Virus record (IMG/VR): IMGVR_UViG_3300034072_002187
Span: 1 to 49,387 of that record
Source: a virus
DNA: 49,387 nucleotides
Reading direction: 5' to 3' (one strand)
The stretch's first letter is position 1. Every line of letters starts with the position of its first letter. Made by a program: the position numbers and the translations under genes. Below the pieces are notes generated by a model. That model ran no database searches. It was not told the DNA's origin and saw nothing but the letters and a program-made list of their open reading frames with translations. Shown piece after piece: positions 2,123 to 18,828 of this stretch.

Positions 2123-2421
2123 CAGCTTTCCAGCCAGGGCAAGAGTTCGCGGCGGACGGCGCGGCCGAAGTTGGTCAGGTCGCGGCCATCGGAGATCTTC
2201 GACGGGGTGTCGCACAGGCCGTGGCGGCGCAGGATGATGGCATCCATCTTATCCCTGGCACGCGGGCCATTGCGGCCCTGCTCGACACGGCCAAGAGCGT
2301 CGACGACGTGCAGGGGCAGTTCGTGCGCGAAGTCTGCCGGGTCAGGCAGATCGGCGAGGTACTGCCTCAGGGCGCGCGCCTCGGCCGAGAACGCATAGTC
2401 GGCATCGGGCATGTAGCTCAT
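2122..2421 (-). CDS. Hypothetical protein
   Basis: A 99-residue protein starting MSYMPDADYAFSAEARALRQ, helical and charged, ending LPWLES. It is coupled by ATGA overlaps on both sides, to the methyltransferase upstream (2418-2421) and to the 82-aa gene downstream (2122-2124). The spacing supports translation. I do not recognise the family. Confidence 0.7.
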   Translation of the reverse strand: MSYMPDADYAFSAEARALRQYLADLPDPADFAHELPLHVVDALGRVEQGRNGPRARDKMDAIILRRHGLCDTPSKISDGRDLTNFGRAVRRELLPWLES

Positions 2422-3038
2422 GCCGCTACCTCGCCCAGCTTGCCGACCTGGTTGCCCCAGCTGCTCCAGCCTTCGCGGGTGGAGCGGGCGAAGAGTTCGA
2501 CCCTCGGGAAATAGCCGAACATCCTTTCGAGATCGGCATAGATGCGATCGGGCTTGCGGCTGTGTTCGCGCTTCGGTTCGACGATCAGCTGCGCAACCGA
2601 GTGATCGAGAACGCGCAGGCCCTTGCCGTGCTTGAACAGCAGGCAGGGTTCCACCTGCTTGCGCGTGTACTTGCCCATGCCGATCGGGCAGGGGGCCACA
2701 TCATCGGTGAAGAGGTCTGCCTGGTTGGGCTTCAGCTGGCGCTGCTTGGCCCAGTAGAACAGGTCCGTGACATAGGTGAAGCCCCACGCGCGGCCGAGCT
2801 CGATCGCCTGATCGAGATGGCTGCCGATCGCCCACATGGCAAGTACGGCATTGTTGGCCGAGATCTCTGCCACGGGCAGGGCCTTCATGTCGTCGATCGA
2901 CATGGTGTCGTAATGGTCCTCGCCCTGCTTTTGCGTGGGCGTGCGCTGCGCACCGGACCATAGCACGGTCTGCCATGGCGGATCGGCGTAGAGCAGCTGG
3001 AAGCGCTTGCCGGCGAGGGAGGCGAAGGGGGAGGTCAT
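2418..3038 (-). CDS. MT-A70-family N6-adenine DNA methyltransferase
   Basis: The N-terminal motif FQLLYADPPWQ carries the catalytic DPPW of the MT-A70 family, followed by YDTMSIDDMKALPV and FVEPKREHSRKPD-type segments typical of phage members of this family. The expected reaction is SAM-dependent methylation of adenine N6, probably protecting phage DNA or altering regulation. The ATG at 3038 overlaps the stop of the upstream Cys-rich gene (ATGA), which decides the start (206 aa). A GTG at 3098 would add 20 residues but would run into the upstream gene. Confidence 0.88.
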   Translation of the reverse strand: MTSPFASLAGKRFQLLYADPPWQTVLWSGAQRTPTQKQGEDHYDTMSIDDMKALPVAEISANNAVLAMWAIGSHLDQAIELGRAWGFTYVTDLFYWAKQRQLKPNQADLFTDDVAPCPIGMGKYTRKQVEPCLLFKHGKGLRVLDHSVAQLIVEPKREHSRKPDRIYADLERMFGYFPRVELFARSTREGWSSWGNQVGKLGEVAA

Positions 3039-3286
3039 TTGCGGCTCGGCGGGGGTGGCGAGGGCATCTTCTCGAAGAAGCGACCCGATGGGCCACACTT
3101 CTCGCGGCCAAGCAGAGTTCGCTCAGTTGCCCGCTCGCTGTACGGATTAAAGGACCCGTGTACGAAATGTGGACCGGTCACCACGTTCGTCTTCTCACGG
3201 ACGATGCGGTGACAGCGTTCTCGCCTGCTCCGAAAGCCCGGCAAATACCAACGGCAATAGCAGCAGAAGGGTGTGCCGCCGCTCAT
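3035..3286 (-). CDS. Small Cys-rich, possibly zinc-binding protein
   Basis: An 83-residue basic protein with Cys8, Cys11, Cys25 and a late Cys in EKCGPSGRFFE, a spacing that could hold one zinc ion. The central part (RCHRIVREKTNVVTGPHF) looks conserved in style rather than random. The start ATG sits one base after the stop of the DUF4326 gene, and its stop overlaps the methyltransferase start. Function unknown. Confidence 0.7.
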   Translation of the reverse strand: MSGGTPFCCYCRWYLPGFRSRRERCHRIVREKTNVVTGPHFVHGSFNPYSERATERTLLGREKCGPSGRFFEKMPSPPPPSRK

Positions 3287-3287
3287 G

Positions 3288-3731
3288 TCAGCCCTGCCCC
3301 TTTGTAGCGTGCTTGCGCTTCGCGGCGAGATAATCGTCAATCGACATGCCGAGGCGCATGCGGCGCAGGGTGACGCCCTGGGCCAGCCATGCGGGTAGGG
3401 GCAGATCAGGGTTGGCGAGGGCGAGCAGGACGTCGGCGTGGCAGGCGCCGCCATCCAGGGCGCACCAGCAGGCCACGTCCTTGCCCTTCAGGTCCGGCAA
3501 CGCGCGATGGATGACGCGGTGGGCCTTCACCTGTAGATCAGGGTCGACATTTTCGCTGACGGAGATGAAGCCGCGGGCGAGCTGCAGGTACTTGGCCGCG
3601 CACTCCGCCCGGGTGCCGTGCTTGCCGACGATGAACACGTTGCCGAGCTTGTCGGGCCGCGCGACGTTGACCGCGCCTTCCGGCAAGCGCCAGCCCTTGG
3701 CGCGGGAGAGGCGGATGCGCTGGGGCATCAT
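3288..3731 (-). CDS. DUF4326 family protein
   Basis: Starts MMPQRIRLSRAKGWRLPEGA and continues NVARPDKLGNVFIVG, the N-terminal signature of DUF4326. A conserved Cys-rich core (DVACWCALDGGACHADVLLALAN) follows. At 147 residues it is of the usual length for the family. DUF4326 proteins are frequent in phage accessory regions, but no biochemical role is established that I can name. It overlaps the upstream gene's stop at 3728-3731. Confidence 0.85.
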   Translation of the reverse strand: MMPQRIRLSRAKGWRLPEGAVNVARPDKLGNVFIVGKHGTRAECAAKYLQLARGFISVSENVDPDLQVKAHRVIHRALPDLKGKDVACWCALDGGACHADVLLALANPDLPLPAWLAQGVTLRRMRLGMSIDDYLAAKRKHATKGQG

Positions 3732-4340: not shown

Positions 4341-5915
4341 TCAGCCCTCCGCCTCGTCGGTCACCAGTTCGTCGGTGCCGTCGTCTTCGTCTTCGGGCTG
4401 CGCAGCCGCCTCTTTGGCTTCGCGTTCCGCCTTCAGTTCGGCGATGAGCTTTTCGCGCTCCTCGGCGGCGAGCTCCTCGTCATAGAGCCGCGTCGCCTCG
4501 GCCTTCTTCGCCTCGACATCGGCCACGGGCACGCGGATCTGCACGGCGACGAGCACGAAGTTCTCGTCGGTTGGATCATCTTCGACCATGCGGGGCTGGT
4601 ACTTGGGCCAGAAGGTGCAGCCGTCGAGCGCGGTATCCTTCAGCAAGCCGCCGGTCAGCTGCGGAACAGCAAGACGCGCGGCGCGGATGCCGATGTGGTA
4701 TTCACGCGCGGACGCGCGCCGCTCCGCTTCCCAGTCGCGCTCTTCATGCGCCGTCTGTTTCTCCTCGGGCCGATACACGCCGATCAGGCGGACCTTGTGG
4801 ATGCCGTCCTCGTCATCCTTGTCGAGAGCGTAGACGCCGATCAGTTCCTTGCGCTTGGCCTTGCCGAGATCGGCCAGATCTTCGAACGAATTGATTCCCC
4901 ATGTCTTAACATAGCCGCCGGGGGCCTTTGGCCACTTGGCGTAGTAGCCGATGCCTTGGCCGGGGGCGTAGAGGCCTTCCTTCAGACCGTGTTCCTTGAC
5001 CAGCGCCGGGATGGCGGCTTCGGCGATCTGCGTGGCCAGCTTTTCGAGCAGGGTGACGTCGACCAGGCGCTGCTGGCCTTCGGTGCCCATGAACATTTCA
5101 CTTTCGATCCGGCCGCCTTCGGCCTGATAGGTGACGAGGCCGACGAACTCCGCCAGCGGGTGATCAAGCGGCAGGGTGCGCTGCCGGACGGCATCGCGGA
5201 TGGTGCTGGGCTTGTGGCCGTTCCACGTATCCTTGGCGCGCTCCTTGAACACCTTCAGCTGCAGCGCGTGATCGGTGGTGGTGGCATAGGCCTTGGCCGC
5301 TTCCAGCCCGATCTCGTTGGTGCGCAGCGCCTCGAGCACTTCGGGGCAGAGACTGGCGAGGCGCATGCGGCCTTCGACGTGGCGCACGCTCTTGCCGAAG
5401 CGGCGGGCAGTGTAGGCAATGGCATCGGCCTCGCTGTTGCCGAGCTTCACCTGCTGCTGCACGATCGTCTGGAACGCGGCGAACTCGTCGGCCGGGTTCA
5501 TGGCGACCTTGTGCAGGTTTTCCGACAGCGACGTTTCGCTGGCTTCGGCGCGGTCCTCGATCATGACCGGTACCGGGTGATCATCGGGCAGGCGTCCGTC
5601 TGCAGCGAGCAACTTCATCGCCTGGAACCTACGGCCGCCGGCGATGACTTCGAACTTGCCGGCCCAGCGATTGGTGCCTTCGGTCTCTTCCACCTTGCTG
5701 GTGGTGAAGTGGGCGGGCACCACGACGAGGTTCTGCTTCAGCCCGCGCGCGGCGATATCGTCGGCCAGGGCGGCGATATCGGCATCGCGTTCGGTGGTGC
5801 GCACGTTGAGATCGGAGAGCAGCAGGGCGCTGAGCGGCAGGGTGGTGATGCCGGAAGTTGCCACCTGCGGGGCGGCGGTTGCGGCGACGGATTCGGACTT
5901 CTTGGGGCGGGCCAT
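4341..5915 (-). CDS. ParB/RepB/Spo0J-like nuclease-domain protein
   Basis: 524 residues. The N-terminal ParB/Srx domain (about 22-150) has LPLSALLLSDLNVR, LADDIAARGLKQNLVV and the nucleotide-binding box VIAGGRRFQAMKLL. A KorB-like helical region follows (FGKSVRHVEGRMRLASL, a plausible helix-turn-helix). The C-terminus is an acidic, Glu-rich tail. ParB-fold proteins bind CTP/ATP and DNA; phage versions may act in regulation or nicking rather than segregation, as no ParA is present here. The start has a strong ribosome site (AAGGAA) eight bases upstream. Confidence 0.88.
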   Translation of the reverse strand: MARPKKSESVAATAAPQVATSGITTLPLSALLLSDLNVRTTERDADIAALADDIAARGLKQNLVVVPAHFTTSKVEETEGTNRWAGKFEVIAGGRRFQAMKLLAADGRLPDDHPVPVMIEDRAEASETSLSENLHKVAMNPADEFAAFQTIVQQQVKLGNSEADAIAYTARRFGKSVRHVEGRMRLASLCPEVLEALRTNEIGLEAAKAYATTTDHALQLKVFKERAKDTWNGHKPSTIRDAVRQRTLPLDHPLAEFVGLVTYQAEGGRIESEMFMGTEGQQRLVDVTLLEKLATQIAEAAIPALVKEHGLKEGLYAPGQGIGYYAKWPKAPGGYVKTWGINSFEDLADLGKAKRKELIGVYALDKDDEDGIHKVRLIGVYRPEEKQTAHEERDWEAERRASAREYHIGIRAARLAVPQLTGGLLKDTALDGCTFWPKYQPRMVEDDPTDENFVLVAVQIRVPVADVEAKKAEATRLYDEELAAEEREKLIAELKAEREAKEAAAQPEDEDDGTDELVTDEAEG

Positions 5916-12999: not shown

Positions 13000-13256
13000 G
13001 GGCGTCTGCCACCAAGCCCGTTCGGCCTGATGCCGAACCGCATGATGCCGCCGAACGCAGCGCCTGCCTGAGTTTGATTGAGGGCATCCATGAGCGGCTG
13101 AGCGCCATCGATATCGACGAACAGGACGGCATGGCGCTGGTTTGTGGCGATGCCATCCGGCTCGAACTGCGCCGCATCGAAGCGGTGATCGAAAGCGTGC
13201 GGCAGGGGCTGCATCGCACCACTCCTACTGAAAGGACCGATGATGTCGGTGCATGA
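12996..13256 (+). CDS. Hypothetical protein
   Basis: 86 residues, acidic and helical (LSLIEGIHERLSAIDIDEQDGMALVCGDAIRLELRRIEAVIESV). The 3' end overlaps the beta-clamp gene start by 17 bp. No motif gives a function; it may be a small clamp-operon accessory protein. Confidence 0.6.
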   Translation: MRASATKPVRPDAEPHDAAERSACLSLIEGIHERLSAIDIDEQDGMALVCGDAIRLELRRIEAVIESVRQGLHRTTPTERTDDVGA

Positions 13257-14472
13257 TACGCGAAAGGCGGCGACACGCGTGAAGGCTGGCACGCTGCTGG
13301 GCGTGCTGAAGGACCTGGAGAAGATCGTTCCGGCCAGGGATTCCATTCCCGTCCTGGGCTTCGTGTTGCTGAGCGCCTGCAGTGGCGTGATCACGTGCAC
13401 GGCTACCAATCTGGACATGTGGGGCGAGCGCGACTGCGCCAGCGACGATCGCGATGGGCCCGGGTCAAAGGAATGGATCGAATCCATCCGCGCGTTCACG
13501 GCGCTGCTGCCCGGCAAGGTGCTGCGCAAGCTGCTGGCCGAGTTCGACAGCGAGGCGATGATCACGATCGATGCCGGCGAGTGCAACAACAAGCCGGGGC
13601 GTGCAACCATCAGCGCCGGGCGTGCGCGGTTCCGGCTTAATGCTCTGGACCCGGCGGACTTCCCGCGCGTGCCGATGGTTGAGCCTGCCTACAGCTATGA
13701 CATGCAGTGCAGCCAGCTGGCCGATGCGCTGGCGGCAGTGCGGCATGCGATGAGCAGCGAAGAGACGCGCTATTACCTGAACGGCGTGCTGGTGCATCCG
13801 GTAAACCTACACCTGCGGTTCGCGGCGACAGACGGCCATCGGCTTGCCCGGCGTTCGATCGATGTACCTGATGGTGGGGCATCGTTCCCGCAGGGCATCG
13901 TCTCGCGCCGCACGGTGGAGCTGCTCGACCAGCTGCTGACGGCTGCGGCAAAGGCGGACGAGGCTGCGCTGGTCAGCGTGGAATGTGCCAGCGAGGAGCG
14001 CGGTGCGATCATTCGATGGGAGATGCCGGCGAGCGATGGCGGCACGGTGACGATCACTGCCAAGACGGTGGACGGAGACTTTCCCGATTATGCCCGCGTG
14101 ATCCCGGCGAACCCGCCGATCCGTGCGGTTATCGCCAAGGCGGCGCTGGCAGAAGCGGTGAAGCGCGTGAGCGTGCTGGCCAGCGACAAGAGCAGCGCCA
14201 TGAAGGCCGAGTTCGAGGCGGAGGTGCTGCGGCTATCGGTGATCACGCCCGAACTGGGCGAGGCGGTGGAAGAGCTGCCCTGCGCCACCACCGGTGGCAC
14301 GGTGAGCGTGGGGCTGGATCACCGCTACTGGCGCGATGCGCTGGGCGCGCTGGCCTGCGACGAGGTGGCGATGCTGCTGACCGACGAAGGCGCGCCGATC
14401 CGCTTGCAAAATGCCGCGGCCGATGCCGATGCGGAAGCGCTGGTGCAGGTGATCATGCCGGTGAGGGTGTGA
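13240..14472 (+). CDS. dnaN: Phage-encoded DNA polymerase III beta sliding clamp
   Basis: 410 residues. The clamp signatures are plain: SIPVLGFVLL near the start, RFAATDGHRLARRSI in the middle domain, VDGDFPDYARVIP in the third domain, and the terminal IMPVRV, equivalent to the clamp's C-terminal MPxR tail. It would form a ring on DNA for processive replication, here supplied by the phage. A GAAAGGA ribosome site precedes the ATG. It is longer than the 366-residue E. coli protein. No clamp loader or polymerase is visible, so it must work with host enzymes. Confidence 0.92.
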   Translation: MMSVHDTRKAATRVKAGTLLGVLKDLEKIVPARDSIPVLGFVLLSACSGVITCTATNLDMWGERDCASDDRDGPGSKEWIESIRAFTALLPGKVLRKLLAEFDSEAMITIDAGECNNKPGRATISAGRARFRLNALDPADFPRVPMVEPAYSYDMQCSQLADALAAVRHAMSSEETRYYLNGVLVHPVNLHLRFAATDGHRLARRSIDVPDGGASFPQGIVSRRTVELLDQLLTAAAKADEAALVSVECASEERGAIIRWEMPASDGGTVTITAKTVDGDFPDYARVIPANPPIRAVIAKAALAEAVKRVSVLASDKSSAMKAEFEAEVLRLSVITPELGEAVEELPCATTGGTVSVGLDHRYWRDALGALACDEVAMLLTDEGAPIRLQNAAADADAEALVQVIMPVRV

Positions 14473-14666
14473 TGGAGCGCGCCGATCTTGGCCCGGTGCT
14501 GCCGCCGCGAGGGGCAGTCTACAACCAGGCGCACGAGATTGCCGAGCTGGCGAAGCTGGCGATGGAACTGACCACGCCGGGGCAGTCTGACCTGTCGCGC
14601 GCGGTGGCGCAGCTGGACAAGATCCGGGTGCTGCTGGGGCCGGACAGTCGGAGTACGGCGGAATGA
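14472..14666 (+). CDS. Small hypothetical protein between clamp and primase
   Basis: 64 residues beginning MERADLGPVLPPRGAVYNQ, mostly helical and ending GPDSRSTAE. The ATG shares one base with the clamp stop (TGATG), and its own stop overlaps the primase start (ATGA). Tight coupling on both sides supports translation; function unknown. Confidence 0.65.
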   Translation: MERADLGPVLPPRGAVYNQAHEIAELAKLAMELTTPGQSDLSRAVAQLDKIRVLLGPDSRSTAE

Positions 14667-16000
14667 ACGAGCGCCTTTCCATCTCGGAACGCATCGCGAG
14701 GGTGAAGGCGAAGCTGCCGATCCATGACGTGATCGGGCGTGACGTGGTGTTGCGCGGCGGCGGGCAGAAGCGGCGGGGCAAGTGCCCGTTCCATGGCAGC
14801 AAGTCGACCAGCTTTTCTGTCGAGACGGGCGGCAACCGGCCGGAGAACGGCTTTGCCCACTGCTTCGGCTGCGCCTGGCATGGCGACGTGATCGGCTATG
14901 TCCGTGACATGCGGGGGCTTTCGTTCCTCGACGCCCTGGCCGCGTGCGAGGGAGAGGCGGGGCTGGCTGAAGGAGAGCAGGCCGTGCGGACCGGTGGCGG
15001 CATGGTGCGCCGCGAGAAGGCGTCCGAGCCGCAGCGCGAGCGCAAGTTCGTCTCCTCGCTCGACATGGCGCGGGCGATCTGGCGCATGGCGCGGACCGAC
15101 CACGAAAAGGTGGCGCGGTACTTTTCCGGGCGCGGCGTGCCGCAGGCGCTGCTGAGCGAGGCGCGGCTTTCCGGCTTCCGCTATCTGGCGGACTGCCCCT
15201 GCATGGCATGGCCAGAAAATGAGGGGGTGGAAGGCGCGCGGCCGCGCAGCGTGATGATCGCGCCGGCGATCATGGTGATGATGCGGCGGCCTGTTTGGCT
15301 CGATGGGGAGACGGGGGGGCGCCTCGAGTTCGTGCCGTCCGGGCTGCACGTGACCTATCTCGATCCAGATGGCAGCGGCACGATGGTGCGGCGCAAGCCA
15401 TGGGCCAAGCCCGACGACGAGGACCCGCACCTGCCCAAACGGCGCATGCTGGGCGAGGCGAGCGGCGCGTGCGTGCTGCTGGGCGACTATCGCCCCGATG
15501 CGCGGCTGTTCATCGGCGAGGGCAACGAGACTGTGCTTTCAGCCATGGCCCTTGCCGGGGCCGAAGAGGCCGACGTTGGCGTGGCAACGCTGAGCCTGGG
15601 CAACCTGCAGGGCGAGCCCCGCCTGCGCCATGGGCCCAAGGGCCGCATCTGGCCGCTGCATGCGATCGAGCCCAGCACCGAGCGGCCACCGTTCGACATT
15701 CCCGGCCATCGCGGACCGGTGGTGGGGCTGATCGATTCCGACATGGCGCCGCTGAAGGGCATGAAGGACCAGCAGACCGGAACCTTCCCCGGCGAGAACG
15801 TGATCGAGCGCAAGGGCGGGCCGATCGTGCGCCGCGCGATCACCGGCGCCGAGCGTGCGCAGATCTGCGCCGACCTGTTCGTGAAGGGCTGGCGCGCCCG
15901 GGGCGCCTCATGGGTGACTGCGATGCGCGCGCCCCTGGGCATGGACTTCAACGATGTCGCCAGAGCCGAACAAGCCAAGGCGGAAGGGGCGAAGGTATGA
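14663..16000 (+). CDS. DnaG-type DNA primase
   Basis: 445 residues. The N-terminal CHC2 zinc-binding domain is visible as Cys41-x2-His44 and Cys67-x2-Cys70 (CPFH ... CFGC), with the usual FSV and DVIGYVRD elements. The Toprim domain carries FIGEGNET (about residue 285) and GLIDSDMAP (about 355), which supply the catalytic Glu and Asp. It should synthesise RNA primers on phage DNA. It is shorter than bacterial DnaG and lacks an obvious DnaB-binding C-terminal domain. Confidence 0.9.
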   Translation: MNERLSISERIARVKAKLPIHDVIGRDVVLRGGGQKRRGKCPFHGSKSTSFSVETGGNRPENGFAHCFGCAWHGDVIGYVRDMRGLSFLDALAACEGEAGLAEGEQAVRTGGGMVRREKASEPQRERKFVSSLDMARAIWRMARTDHEKVARYFSGRGVPQALLSEARLSGFRYLADCPCMAWPENEGVEGARPRSVMIAPAIMVMMRRPVWLDGETGGRLEFVPSGLHVTYLDPDGSGTMVRRKPWAKPDDEDPHLPKRRMLGEASGACVLLGDYRPDARLFIGEGNETVLSAMALAGAEEADVGVATLSLGNLQGEPRLRHGPKGRIWPLHAIEPSTERPPFDIPGHRGPVVGLIDSDMAPLKGMKDQQTGTFPGENVIERKGGPIVRRAITGAERAQICADLFVKGWRARGASWVTAMRAPLGMDFNDVARAEQAKAEGAKV

Positions 16001-16125
16001 ATCTGCTACCGGAATTGTCCGTCGCTCTTGTGGGGTCGGAACCGGGCGTGCGGGCGGGTGTCATGATCAGCCTGCGCTGGTTCCGCTGTGGCGTTTCGCT
16101 CGTGCTGGTGCGGTGGCTGCGATGA
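15997..16125 (+). CDS. Tiny hypothetical peptide
   Basis: 42 residues (MNLLPELSVALVGSEP to VLVRWLR). Its ATG overlaps the primase stop and its stop overlaps the next start, both as ATGA, so it may serve as a translational bridge. It has a hydrophobic C-terminal half and no known motif. Confidence 0.45.
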   Translation: MNLLPELSVALVGSEPGVRAGVMISLRWFRCGVSLVLVRWLR

Positions 16126-16406
16126 TGTGCGGGCATGGAAACTGGAAGCCCGGCGACCAGGCCGAGTGCATCGATGTCAGCGACATCCGTCTTGGCCGGC
16201 GCGGCTATTATGTGGCGCAGGGCGGGAAGTTCCTGGCGCTCGGTGCGGTCTATGGCGTCGGGCGGGTGGATATCGGCCCATATGGTGAGCTCTGCCTTGA
16301 ACTGGGTGGTGTGGATGGCGGGCCGAAGCTGGCGCGCCGGTTCCGGCCGATCCGCTTCGGCGTGCTGAAATCCGCTCTGCGCCAGCGTGAAAGGGAGGAC
16401 GCCTGA
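16122..16406 (+). CDS. Hypothetical protein
   Basis: 94 residues starting MMCGHGNWKPGDQAECIDVSD. The pattern of short beta strands (YYVAQGGKFLALGAVYGVG, VDIGPYGELCLELGG) and KLARRFRPIRFGVL suggests a small SH3-like barrel. This type of small barrel protein is common in alphaproteobacterial phage operons. Coupled to the GapR-like gene by one-base overlap at 16406. Confidence 0.65.
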   Translation: MMCGHGNWKPGDQAECIDVSDIRLGRRGYYVAQGGKFLALGAVYGVGRVDIGPYGELCLELGGVDGGPKLARRFRPIRFGVLKSALRQREREDA

Positions 16407-17098
16407 TGGCTGCCGACGATCGGCTGCGCGGCTTGATCCAGCGTGTGCGCAACCTCGAGGACGAGCGCGCCGACATCAACAAGGATATCGGCGACGTCTT
16501 CAGCGAGGCGAAGTCGCTCGGCTATGACACCCGCATCATGCGCCAGCTGCTCAAGCGCATGCGCATGCGGCCGGAGGATCGCACCGAGGCCGACGCGATG
16601 CTGGAGCGCTACGAGGAAGCGGTGGGCGTCGACGGGCCCGAACATGCCCATGTCGACATGGCGCCGCGCAAGCGGGACACTTATGTCGCGCCGCCCGATG
16701 CCACCACCGAGCAGCAGCTGCGCGCGATCATCGCCAAGGTGCTGGAGCTGCGCGCCGAGCGTACCGAGACGGGCAAGACGATCGCGCTGGAACTGCGCAA
16801 GGCGCGCAGCCTGGGCTTCAGCCCGGTGAAGATCACCGAGGCGTGCCGCTGGCTCGAGAAGTGCGACGAGCATGGCCGCGACCGGATGATGGACGCCGAG
16901 GAGCTGTTCCGCATCTACCGCGAGATCGGCGAGGGGCCGCAGCCCGAACTGAAGGTCGAAGGGGATTCCAAGCTCGTGGCGATGTTCGCTGGCGGTGAAG
17001 CCGCGGCGCCGAAGAAGGCGGCGACGCTGAAACAGAAGCAGGTTGGCGACGCGATCGCGTTGGCGGCGATAGCCCGCATGAACAGGGGGATTCGTTGA
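16406..17098 (+). CDS. Tandem GapR/DUF2312-domain protein
   Basis: 230 residues with two related helical domains. Domain 1 (about 5-74) is a good GapR/DUF2312 match: VRNLEDERADINKDIGDVF, SEAKSLGYDTRIMRQLLK, EADAMLERYEEAVG. Domain 2 (about 104-175) repeats the pattern: KVLELRAERTETGKTIALEL, RKARSLGFSPVKITEACR, EELFRIYREIG. A Lys-rich tail follows. Host GapR is a single-domain protein of about 90 residues that binds overtwisted DNA ahead of the fork and stimulates topoisomerases. A fused tandem form next to the primase suggests a role in phage replication topology; that function is inferred. Confidence 0.8.
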   Translation: MAADDRLRGLIQRVRNLEDERADINKDIGDVFSEAKSLGYDTRIMRQLLKRMRMRPEDRTEADAMLERYEEAVGVDGPEHAHVDMAPRKRDTYVAPPDATTEQQLRAIIAKVLELRAERTETGKTIALELRKARSLGFSPVKITEACRWLEKCDEHGRDRMMDAEELFRIYREIGEGPQPELKVEGDSKLVAMFAGGEAAAPKKAATLKQKQVGDAIALAAIARMNRGIR

Positions 17099-18828
17099 GC
17101 TCTCCGCTTATCTCGGTGCCGGTTGATGATCCGCTCGAACTCGCGTGGTTCGATTGCAATGACTATGGCAACGGGCGGCGCCTGGTGGTGCTGTCCAAGG
17201 GGCTGCTCAAGTGGGTGGACGATGCCTACTGGGTGGCGTTCGACGGCCAGCGCTGGAGCGAGCGCGAGGGCGCCTATCGTGCGCGTCAGCTGGCGCACGA
17301 TGTCTCGCTGCATATCCGCGAGGAACTGGCCGCGCTGGCCGCGCTGATCGGTGATCCCAAGAACCCTGACGGCGAGGCACTGGCCGAGCGCTATGGCGAC
17401 TGGTGCACGACCGAGCGCGCGCTCGACCGCATCAAGCTGCTGGGGGCGCATTCGATCAAGAGCGGCAACGCCAACCAGACCGACAACATGCTCAAGCAGG
17501 CCAAGGACATGGCCGAGATGCGGGCGTGGAGCGAAGAGTTCGATGTCGATCCGCTTACATACAATGTGCAGAACGGTACGCTGCGCTTCGGCCTCGTGGG
17601 GCAGGTGACCGGCTTCGGCAAGCTGGTGGCGACGAAAGACGCGCCCGATGGCCGGAAATGGGGTGCATGGTTCCGCGAGGGGCATGATGCCGCCGACATG
17701 CTGCGCCAGATCTCGAACTGGGTGTTCGATGCCGAGGCGACGTGCCCGATGTGGACCGAGCGCCTCGTACTCGTCCAGCCCGAGGATGACGTGCGCGCGG
17801 TGCTGCCGCGCATGTACGGGCAGACGCTGACCGGGCTGACCGATGGCGAGGAGTTCTACGTCCACAAGGGGCGCGGCGGCGACGGCAAGACCAAGACGCA
17901 CGAGGTCATCGCGCACGGGCACGGCGATTACTATCGCGACACCTCGATCAAGACGTTCCTGCAGGCCAGCTTCCAGAAGAGCGGATCGGAGCATCGCAGC
18001 GACCTTGTGCGCCTGGCGGGCGATATCCGCATGGTGGTGGCACCCGAGCCGCCGCCGCGATCGACGTGGGACGGCGAAGTGATCAAGCAGGTGACCGGCG
18101 GCGGCACGGTGACGGCGCGCGGGTCTGGCGCCAAGGCCGAGATCACATACAAGCCGCGGTGGAAGCTGTTCGTGGAAGTGAACCCGACGCCGGCCATGCC
18201 GGGCGACGACAAGGGCTTCAGGCGGCGTTTCCGCCTCATTCCGTGGCTGGTGGACCTCAACAAGATCCCCGGCGGGTTCGAGAGCCCTGCGGCGCTGCGT
18301 GAGCGCCTTTGGAGCGAAGCCAGCGGCGTGCTCAACTGGCTGATCGCCGGTTGCCTCGAATGGCTGGGCGACCGGCGCGTGCCGATGCCTGAGCGCGAGG
18401 CCGATGCACTGGCCGACTTCTGGGCCACCGGTAATCCTCTGAGCGAGTGGTTGGACGAGGAATGCGACCTCGGCGACAAGGACGCCCAGACCGGCACTTC
18501 CATCCTGCACAAGGCCTTCAAGGATTGGATGGAGCGCAACGAGGTCGAAGAGGACGCGATCAAGAAGTGGAACATCACAAAGTTTGGCCGTGATCTCGGC
18601 CAGAGGCAGATCGTGGGCAAGAAGGATCGCCGGGGCAACAAGGTGCGCGTGGGCATCCGTTTGCGCGCCGATGGCCTGCTGACGGGGCAAGATGAGGGCT
18701 CTCCTGCCGACAGGCCAGCGCAGGGGTCGGCGGAGCCGACCCGCGATTTGCCGGACAGTGATGACTGGTCAGGGCGGGGCTTCGACGACGACTTCGACCC
18801 GTTCGGGCCGGGGAGCGGCACGCGATGA
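17095..18828 (+). CDS. D5-like primase/SF3 helicase
   Basis: 577 residues from a TTG start overlapping the previous stop (TTGA). A D5 N-terminal region (about 120-230) leads into an SF3 helicase with Walker A GRGGDGKT (about 260-267) and a downstream LVRLAGDIRMVVAPEP strand. A sensor/Arg region with WKLFVEVNPTPAMPGDDKGFRRR follows. It should unwind phage DNA at the origin. The C-terminal 60 residues are acidic and disordered. It lies directly before the iteron-like repeats, as an initiator helicase often does. Confidence 0.88.
   Translation: MSSPLISVPVDDPLELAWFDCNDYGNGRRLVVLSKGLLKWVDDAYWVAFDGQRWSEREGAYRARQLAHDVSLHIREELAALAALIGDPKNPDGEALAERYGDWCTTERALDRIKLLGAHSIKSGNANQTDNMLKQAKDMAEMRAWSEEFDVDPLTYNVQNGTLRFGLVGQVTGFGKLVATKDAPDGRKWGAWFREGHDAADMLRQISNWVFDAEATCPMWTERLVLVQPEDDVRAVLPRMYGQTLTGLTDGEEFYVHKGRGGDGKTKTHEVIAHGHGDYYRDTSIKTFLQASFQKSGSEHRSDLVRLAGDIRMVVAPEPPPRSTWDGEVIKQVTGGGTVTARGSGAKAEITYKPRWKLFVEVNPTPAMPGDDKGFRRRFRLIPWLVDLNKIPGGFESPAALRERLWSEASGVLNWLIAGCLEWLGDRRVPMPEREADALADFWATGNPLSEWLDEECDLGDKDAQTGTSILHKAFKDWMERNEVEEDAIKKWNITKFGRDLGQRQIVGKKDRRGNKVRVGIRLRADGLLTGQDEGSPADRPAQGSAEPTRDLPDSDDWSGRGFDDDFDPFGPGSGTR

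Follow-up and report, generated by a model that had tools for sequence, protein, structure and literature searches.

A temperate tailed phage of alphaproteobacteria encodes a 230-residue protein that carries two GapR domains in tandem, a first of canonical type (D1) and a divergent second (D2), followed by a C-terminal extension with a basic tail. The protein very probably belongs to the replication machinery of the phage group in which it occurs. GapR forms a tetrameric ring that encircles DNA, prefers overtwisted, AT-rich DNA and stimulates topoisomerases. Its single-domain ring form is well characterized (PMC6853979, PMC7498317, PMC7373187).

The DNA analysed, called the window below, is a 49,387-nucleotide stretch of an IMG/VR virus record. 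An integrase and an S24-type repressor are found at the left end, followed by the replication block and then by the terminase, portal, capsid and tail genes. A leftward block encodes an MT-A70-type methyltransferase (2418-3098), a DUF4326 protein (3288-3731) and a ParB-like protein (4341-5915), all on the minus strand. The hosts of the tandem-GapR phage are alphaproteobacterial and its lifestyle is temperate.

The order of genes in the replication block is beta clamp, CHC2 primase, a doubtful 150-aa ORF, tandem GapR and D5-type helicase (Table 1). The placement between a primase and the initiator helicase, proposed in a sequence-only reading of the same DNA, is confirmed by the family matches of both neighbors. 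The tandem gene is clearly coding, with a GC3 of 0.88. Its ATG lies one base inside the end of the small upstream ORF. The TTG start of the helicase overlaps the tandem GapR stop (TTGA), and tandem GapR and helicase are therefore probably translationally coupled. The small ORF itself overlaps the end of the primase gene and has a weak coding signal; it could result from a wrongly called start site or could encode a protein that evolves fast. The phage's own DNA polymerase III beta clamp adjoins the primase, and a clamp is likewise present in 18 of 44 related loci.

Table 1. Features of the tandem GapR protein, its neighbors in the window, and fused forms at related loci (numbers with the prefix L).
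Feature	Position	Strand	Evidence or remark
Tandem GapR protein, 230 aa (D1-linker-D2-tail)	16406..17098	+	ATG ORF, Pfam, AlphaFold
D1, canonical-type GapR domain, aa 3-74	16412..16627	+	PF10073, E 1.5e-22
Linker, aa 75-99	16628..16702	+	Little conserved; model confidence low in part
D2, divergent GapR domain, aa 100-176	16703..16933	+	Weak PF10073 match, D2-family profile, shuffles
D2 hinge insertion KCDEHG, aa 152-157	16859..16876	+	Alignments; GapR positions 67-68
Basic C-terminal tail, aa 203-230, net charge +6	17012..17095	+	Helix 208-226 predicted with modest confidence; co-varies with helicase
Sliding clamp (DNA polymerase III beta) homologue	13240..14472	+	Three DNA_pol3_beta domains, Pfam
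CHC2/DnaG-type primase	14663..16000	+	Zn_ribbon_DnaG 1.1e-17; phrog_510 2e-41; CHC2 zinc finger
150-aa ORF in the primase/tandem GapR gap	15954..16406	+	Matches no family; doubtful as a gene
D5-type helicase	17095..18828	+	D5_N 5.8e-13; phrog_1156 1.8e-90
GapR at C-terminus of DnaG-type primase, with its own C-terminal extension	L003:3564-5357; L010:3623-5398; L195:4257-5939; L203:4188-5924; L198:1-1080
FtsK-gamma winged helix-GapR, directly upstream of helicase	L146, L147, L194, L207-L210, L216

The assignment of D1 is straightforward. Its score against PF10073 (GapR/DUF2312) is 79.4 bits, above the curated cut-off of 22.6, and phmmer matched solved GapR chains, the best at 2.8e-12. The window D2 taken alone gave 11.8 bits (E 0.0078), under the Pfam cut-off, with a match that spans 16709-16921 in the same frame as D1 and in whole-domain register (profile positions 2-68 of 72). 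This is weak by itself, and relatives were therefore needed to decide homology. The D2 of a related locus, L180, exceeds the Pfam cut-off alone at 26.7 bits, as do single-domain orthologues at L093 (30-31.5 bits) and L102 (29.7 bits). When 28 D2-type rows were made into a profile from which canonical GapR was absent, its search of all PDB chains matched the seven distinct GapR sequences there at 2e-7 to 7e-6, over the length of the domain, the next-best match being 0.09. None of 1000 shuffles reached the score of the window D2 against a profile whose source sequences included no D2, and the D1 and D2 halves align to each other at 5e-6. The D2 of L222 is unclear alone, since 3 of 1000 shuffles equal or exceed its score with the canonical profile; it is tied to GapR through the D2 family. 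Judged from these comparisons, D2 is a GapR homologue and not a canonical GapR.

The proposal of two GapR copies within one 230-residue protein, the second more diverged, is thus upheld by the profiles of D1 and D2, and the boundaries suggested for them (5-74 and 104-175) were correct to within a few residues. As regards the profile comparison of the two halves, D1 alone passed the Pfam cut-off, and the homology of the window D2 is established through L180, L093, L102 and the D2 profile. Other families were considered and rejected. DUF494 matched D2 at E 0.014-0.03, and the N-terminal domains of seryl-tRNA synthetase and of an N-acyltransferase were candidates for the whole protein; all fell far under their cut-offs and are explained by helical composition.

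AlphaFold predicts the GapR helix order, long-short-short, in both halves, with helices at 3-37, 42-52 and 56-73 in D1 and at 101-135, 140-156 and 158-176 in D2. The models are of single chains, with pTM values of 0.38-0.44. Foldseek found no GapR with either model, isolated open helical chains of low pTM making poor queries. The claim of a common fold accordingly rests on the sequence profiles and the helix pattern, and not on a structural match.

The DNA contacts of Caulobacter GapR are made by K34, K42, K49, K56, K59, K60, R63 and K66 (PMC7498317), and basic residues of helix 2 are important (PMC7373187). These eight positions were mapped onto all GapR domains, with K or R scored as basic. 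The window D1 retains K or R at 6 of the 8 positions, having G at 42 and Q at 60; the window D2 retains 3, and positions 60 and 66 are acidic. Mean values were 6.9 for canonical GapR, 4.74 for tandem D1 and 3.0 for D2, and D1 has fewer basic contacts than host GapR in many tandem members. Every D1 of the 19 tandem proteins has a basic residue at position 59, where no D2 has one, and every D2 has an acidic residue at position 66. A further mark of D2-type domains is an insertion of four residues at GapR positions 67-68, with the consensus W-x-EKC-x-KHG (KCxKHG). In GapR, residues 67-68 form the loop where alpha2 kinks or splits, closing the tetramer and switching between extended and closed forms (PMC7498317). 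Because the contact residues and the hinge differ in this way, D1 has probably kept its grip on DNA, whereas D2 probably lacks the usual mode of binding.

In the dimer core, hydrophobic residues are kept at 13 of 13 positions in the window D1 and at 11 of 13 in D2. Since the long first helix mediates dimer formation in GapR (PMC7498317) and a 25-residue linker would be long enough, D1 and D2 could pair within one chain as a GapR-like dimer, so that two chains would encircle DNA with a fixed stoichiometry, the geometry suggested in the sequence-only reading. We regard such a covalent ring as unlikely. D2-type domains stand alone in 12 relatives, which shows that D2 does not require D1 as a partner; most D2 contacts are lost and a hinge insertion is gained; and the single-chain model has no confident D1-D2 packing (pTM 0.38).

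With the whole protein or D2 as query, no relative of D2 was found among viral contigs and phage records, and relatives were reached only via the neighboring helicase. An alignment of seven helicases led to 80 viral loci. The final set of viral and prophage loci, after removal of near-identical ones, contains 52 with a GapR-domain protein upstream of the helicase. Four architectures occupy this one position: tandem GapR (19), single GapR (20), FtsK-gamma-GapR (8) and a primase-GapR fusion (5, one of them cut by a contig end). These proportions are not natural frequencies, because the sample was drawn by similarity to the window helicase. The tandem form, recurring at 19 non-redundant phage and prophage loci, is no lone oddity. 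The same tandem is present in a Novosphingobium prophage (L092), whose helicase is 76% identical to that of the window. In Croceicoccus (L093) and in a virus (L102), with helicases about 63% identical, a single 149-aa protein corresponds to D2 plus tail. Outside this set no tandem was seen: at 80% cover none was found among 50,697 records of phages or 72,556 of plasmids, none is among 85 other phage GapRs, and the only one in 385 alphaproteobacterial genomes is in the Novosphingobium of L092. A BLAST match (2-149) at L013 was rejected as a tandem, because the GapR gene there has one domain and the rest belongs to a separate ORF downstream.

In the helicase tree the GapR-associated loci fall in one clade of 55 (SH-aLRT 96). 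An upstream GapR-domain protein is encoded at 52 of these, within 100 nt of the helicase in 44. Of the 44 loci with enough flank, 41 have a primase-like gene upstream. The three members without GapR are L215 and two contigs that start at or near the helicase, so that the gene is kept in 52 of 53 testable loci. L215 is the only one with full upstream sequence yet no GapR; its GapR gap is filled by a 410-aa ORF (L215:4775-6007) that contains an SGGKDS motif and looks PAPS-reductase/DndC-like by eye. No GapR adjoins the more distant helicases, and at L101 and L236 one is located several kilobases away. We propose a helicase-linked GapR group, marked by a GapR domain directly upstream of a helicase of this D5-type clade and by a C-terminal extension; the window protein has both features.

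This retention bears on the view that the protein is an ordinary phage nucleoid or transcription protein that happens to lie near replication genes. Single GapR genes do occur in varied surroundings in other phages, and T4 DsbA, a double-strand DNA-binding protein, is a reported phage GapR homologue (PMC7824862). Against mere linkage, which we consider very unlikely, stand the 52 of 53 loci and the primase-GapR fusions, which are a direct physical link of a GapR domain to primase. A still more remote reading is that D2, or D1, co-assembles with host GapR and either strips it from the chromosome, in line with the displacement suggested in the sequence-only reading, or recruits it to the phage fork. 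GapR is present in most alphaproteobacteria searched, among them Novosphingobium and Croceicoccus, in which relatives reside, D1 resembles the host protein, and the dimer core is kept; the gene, however, is locked to primase and helicase, is fused to primase in relatives and is located away from early takeover genes. The replication role put forward in the sequence-only reading is, by comparison, strongly supported by context, with 52 relatives keeping the slot and five fusing GapR to primase.

The two domains do not stem from a recent internal duplication, as the nearest group to D2 is that of the single helicase-linked domains, while D1 falls among GapRs that are canonical or linked to FtsK or primase. 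In a GapR-domain tree of only 80 columns, in which the fine branching is unsure, the 19 D2 domains are united (97), and their group in turn joins the single helicase-linked ones (99). The tandem state requires at least six changes on the helicase tree. The simplest reading is that one or a few fusions joined two old branches of GapR and that exchange between phages would have followed. Modules do travel separately: identity between the window and L227 is 39% in D1 and 73% in D2.

The window protein extends 54-55 residues past D2. An extension of 41-66 residues after the last GapR domain is found in all 52 helicase-linked proteins, whereas in other phage GapRs the median is 3 residues and 79 of 85 have fewer than 40. 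The sequence-only reading missed this extension, the last 25 or so residues of which co-vary with the helicase. Similarity of the last 28 residues correlates with helicase similarity at r 0.70 (partial r 0.63 with GapR-domain similarity fixed), compared to a partial r of 0.17 between GapR-domain and helicase similarity with the tail fixed. At L092, L178 and L194, where the GapR part has been exchanged, the tail goes with the helicase. In the comparison of the window with L092 the helicase is 77% identical, D1 43%, D2 31% and the tail 91%. Within the tail, 12 of 22 third codon positions have changed and 2 residues differ, and because the third positions diverged while the residues were kept, this tail is held at the protein level. 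The constraint is clear for this pair and modest in others (ratio 0.39-0.64). The co-variation is partly confounded by DNA adjacency, which alone would give some. The tails of L093, L102, L142 and L178 are window-like despite 223-319 nt between gene and helicase; together with the codon pattern, this favors selection on the tail. The predicted tail helix is not detectably amphipathic, its moment being no greater than in shuffles.

GapR occupies overtwisted DNA ahead of replication forks and stimulates gyrase and topo IV. In the phage we propose a replisome accessory protein in which D1 would act on duplex DNA, and D2 and the tail would couple it to primase and helicase; we give this proposal as a whole an even chance. 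D1, which likely grips DNA, would wrap the parental duplex near the fork as GapR does. D2, with most direct DNA contacts and the normal tetramer-closing hinge gone, would serve in assembly or as an adaptor, and the tail may dock on the phage helicase or on a primase-helicase complex; that D2 and the tail form a protein adaptor is about evenly balanced. The protein would hold the unwinding machine on DNA, help to handle positive supercoils ahead of the fork, or both, with relief of overtwist only tentatively suggested as the actual benefit. D1 is not essential to the slot, because single-domain relatives manage without it.

The main rival, prompted by the FtsK-gamma form, is helicase loading at the origin. 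A variable DNA-targeting module, which would be canonical GapR, the FtsK-gamma winged helix or primase, would combine with a common GapR-plus-tail part to deliver the helicase to the phage origin, and any handling of supercoils would be incidental. FtsK-gamma, N-terminal to GapR in eight same-slot relatives, is a winged helix that reads DNA sequence in the protein from which it is known; the C-terminal extension is common to all forms; and many origins are AT-rich. A preference of GapR for AT-rich DNA (PMC8510090) also counts for this reading. No origin was located in the window, and in twenty relatives a lone GapR domain is present with no DNA-targeting module added to it. We know of no loader activity of GapR, and a loader is on balance rather unlikely.

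To return to the accessory protein, the fusions and the conserved slot tie GapR domains to primase and helicase, and crosstalk between GapR and replication could be tested with small phage proteins. A natural two-domain GapR may also be a tool for separating the parts of the ring needed for DNA binding and for assembly. More broadly, it is conceivable, if still doubtful, that alphaproteobacterial phages have a class of GapR-derived replisome couplers, with a DNA-gripping copy, an adaptor copy and a helicase-matched tail, which place a topology-sensing ring in the replisome.

To our knowledge no physical link of GapR to a replisome has been reported. In the literature covered, which takes in few subscription journals, no report was found of a tandem GapR, of a primase-GapR fusion or of GapR as a fixed neighbor of a phage helicase; this search does not prove the novelty of a GapR-replisome link. 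Single GapRs are already present in many phage records. A 2025 paper claims the first GapR in a phage genome (PMC12185513); Azospirillum phage Cd and others already carried DUF2312 genes in earlier records.

Each half of the window protein has in common with GapR (UPF0335/DUF2312, PF10073; Caulobacter CC_3319; PDB 6cg8, 6jyk, 6ozx) the sequence profile, in D2 by way of its relatives, and the order of helices. It differs from Caulobacter GapR in having two domains, a hinge insertion and acidic contact sites in D2, a C-terminal extension and a location in a phage primase-helicase operon. Single-domain phage GapRs, such as Azospirillum phage Cd gp10 and those of Komagataeibacter phage phiKX1 and Erythrobacter phage R34L1, belong to the family of D1 and to alphaproteobacterial phages. 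In contrast to the tandem they have one domain, usually no tail and, in the loci inspected, no linkage to a window-type helicase. T4 DsbA is described as a late-promoter DNA-binding protein and not as a neighbor of primase or helicase. Similar FtsK-gamma-GapR fusions also occur at unlinked phage loci (L014, L016, L055, L066). The FtsK-gamma-GapR proteins (PHROG 4212, no assigned function) share the GapR domain, and their helicase-linked members share both slot and extension. Their N-terminal partner is a winged helix in place of a second GapR, and the match of tandem proteins to the PHROG 4212 profile is confined to its GapR part.
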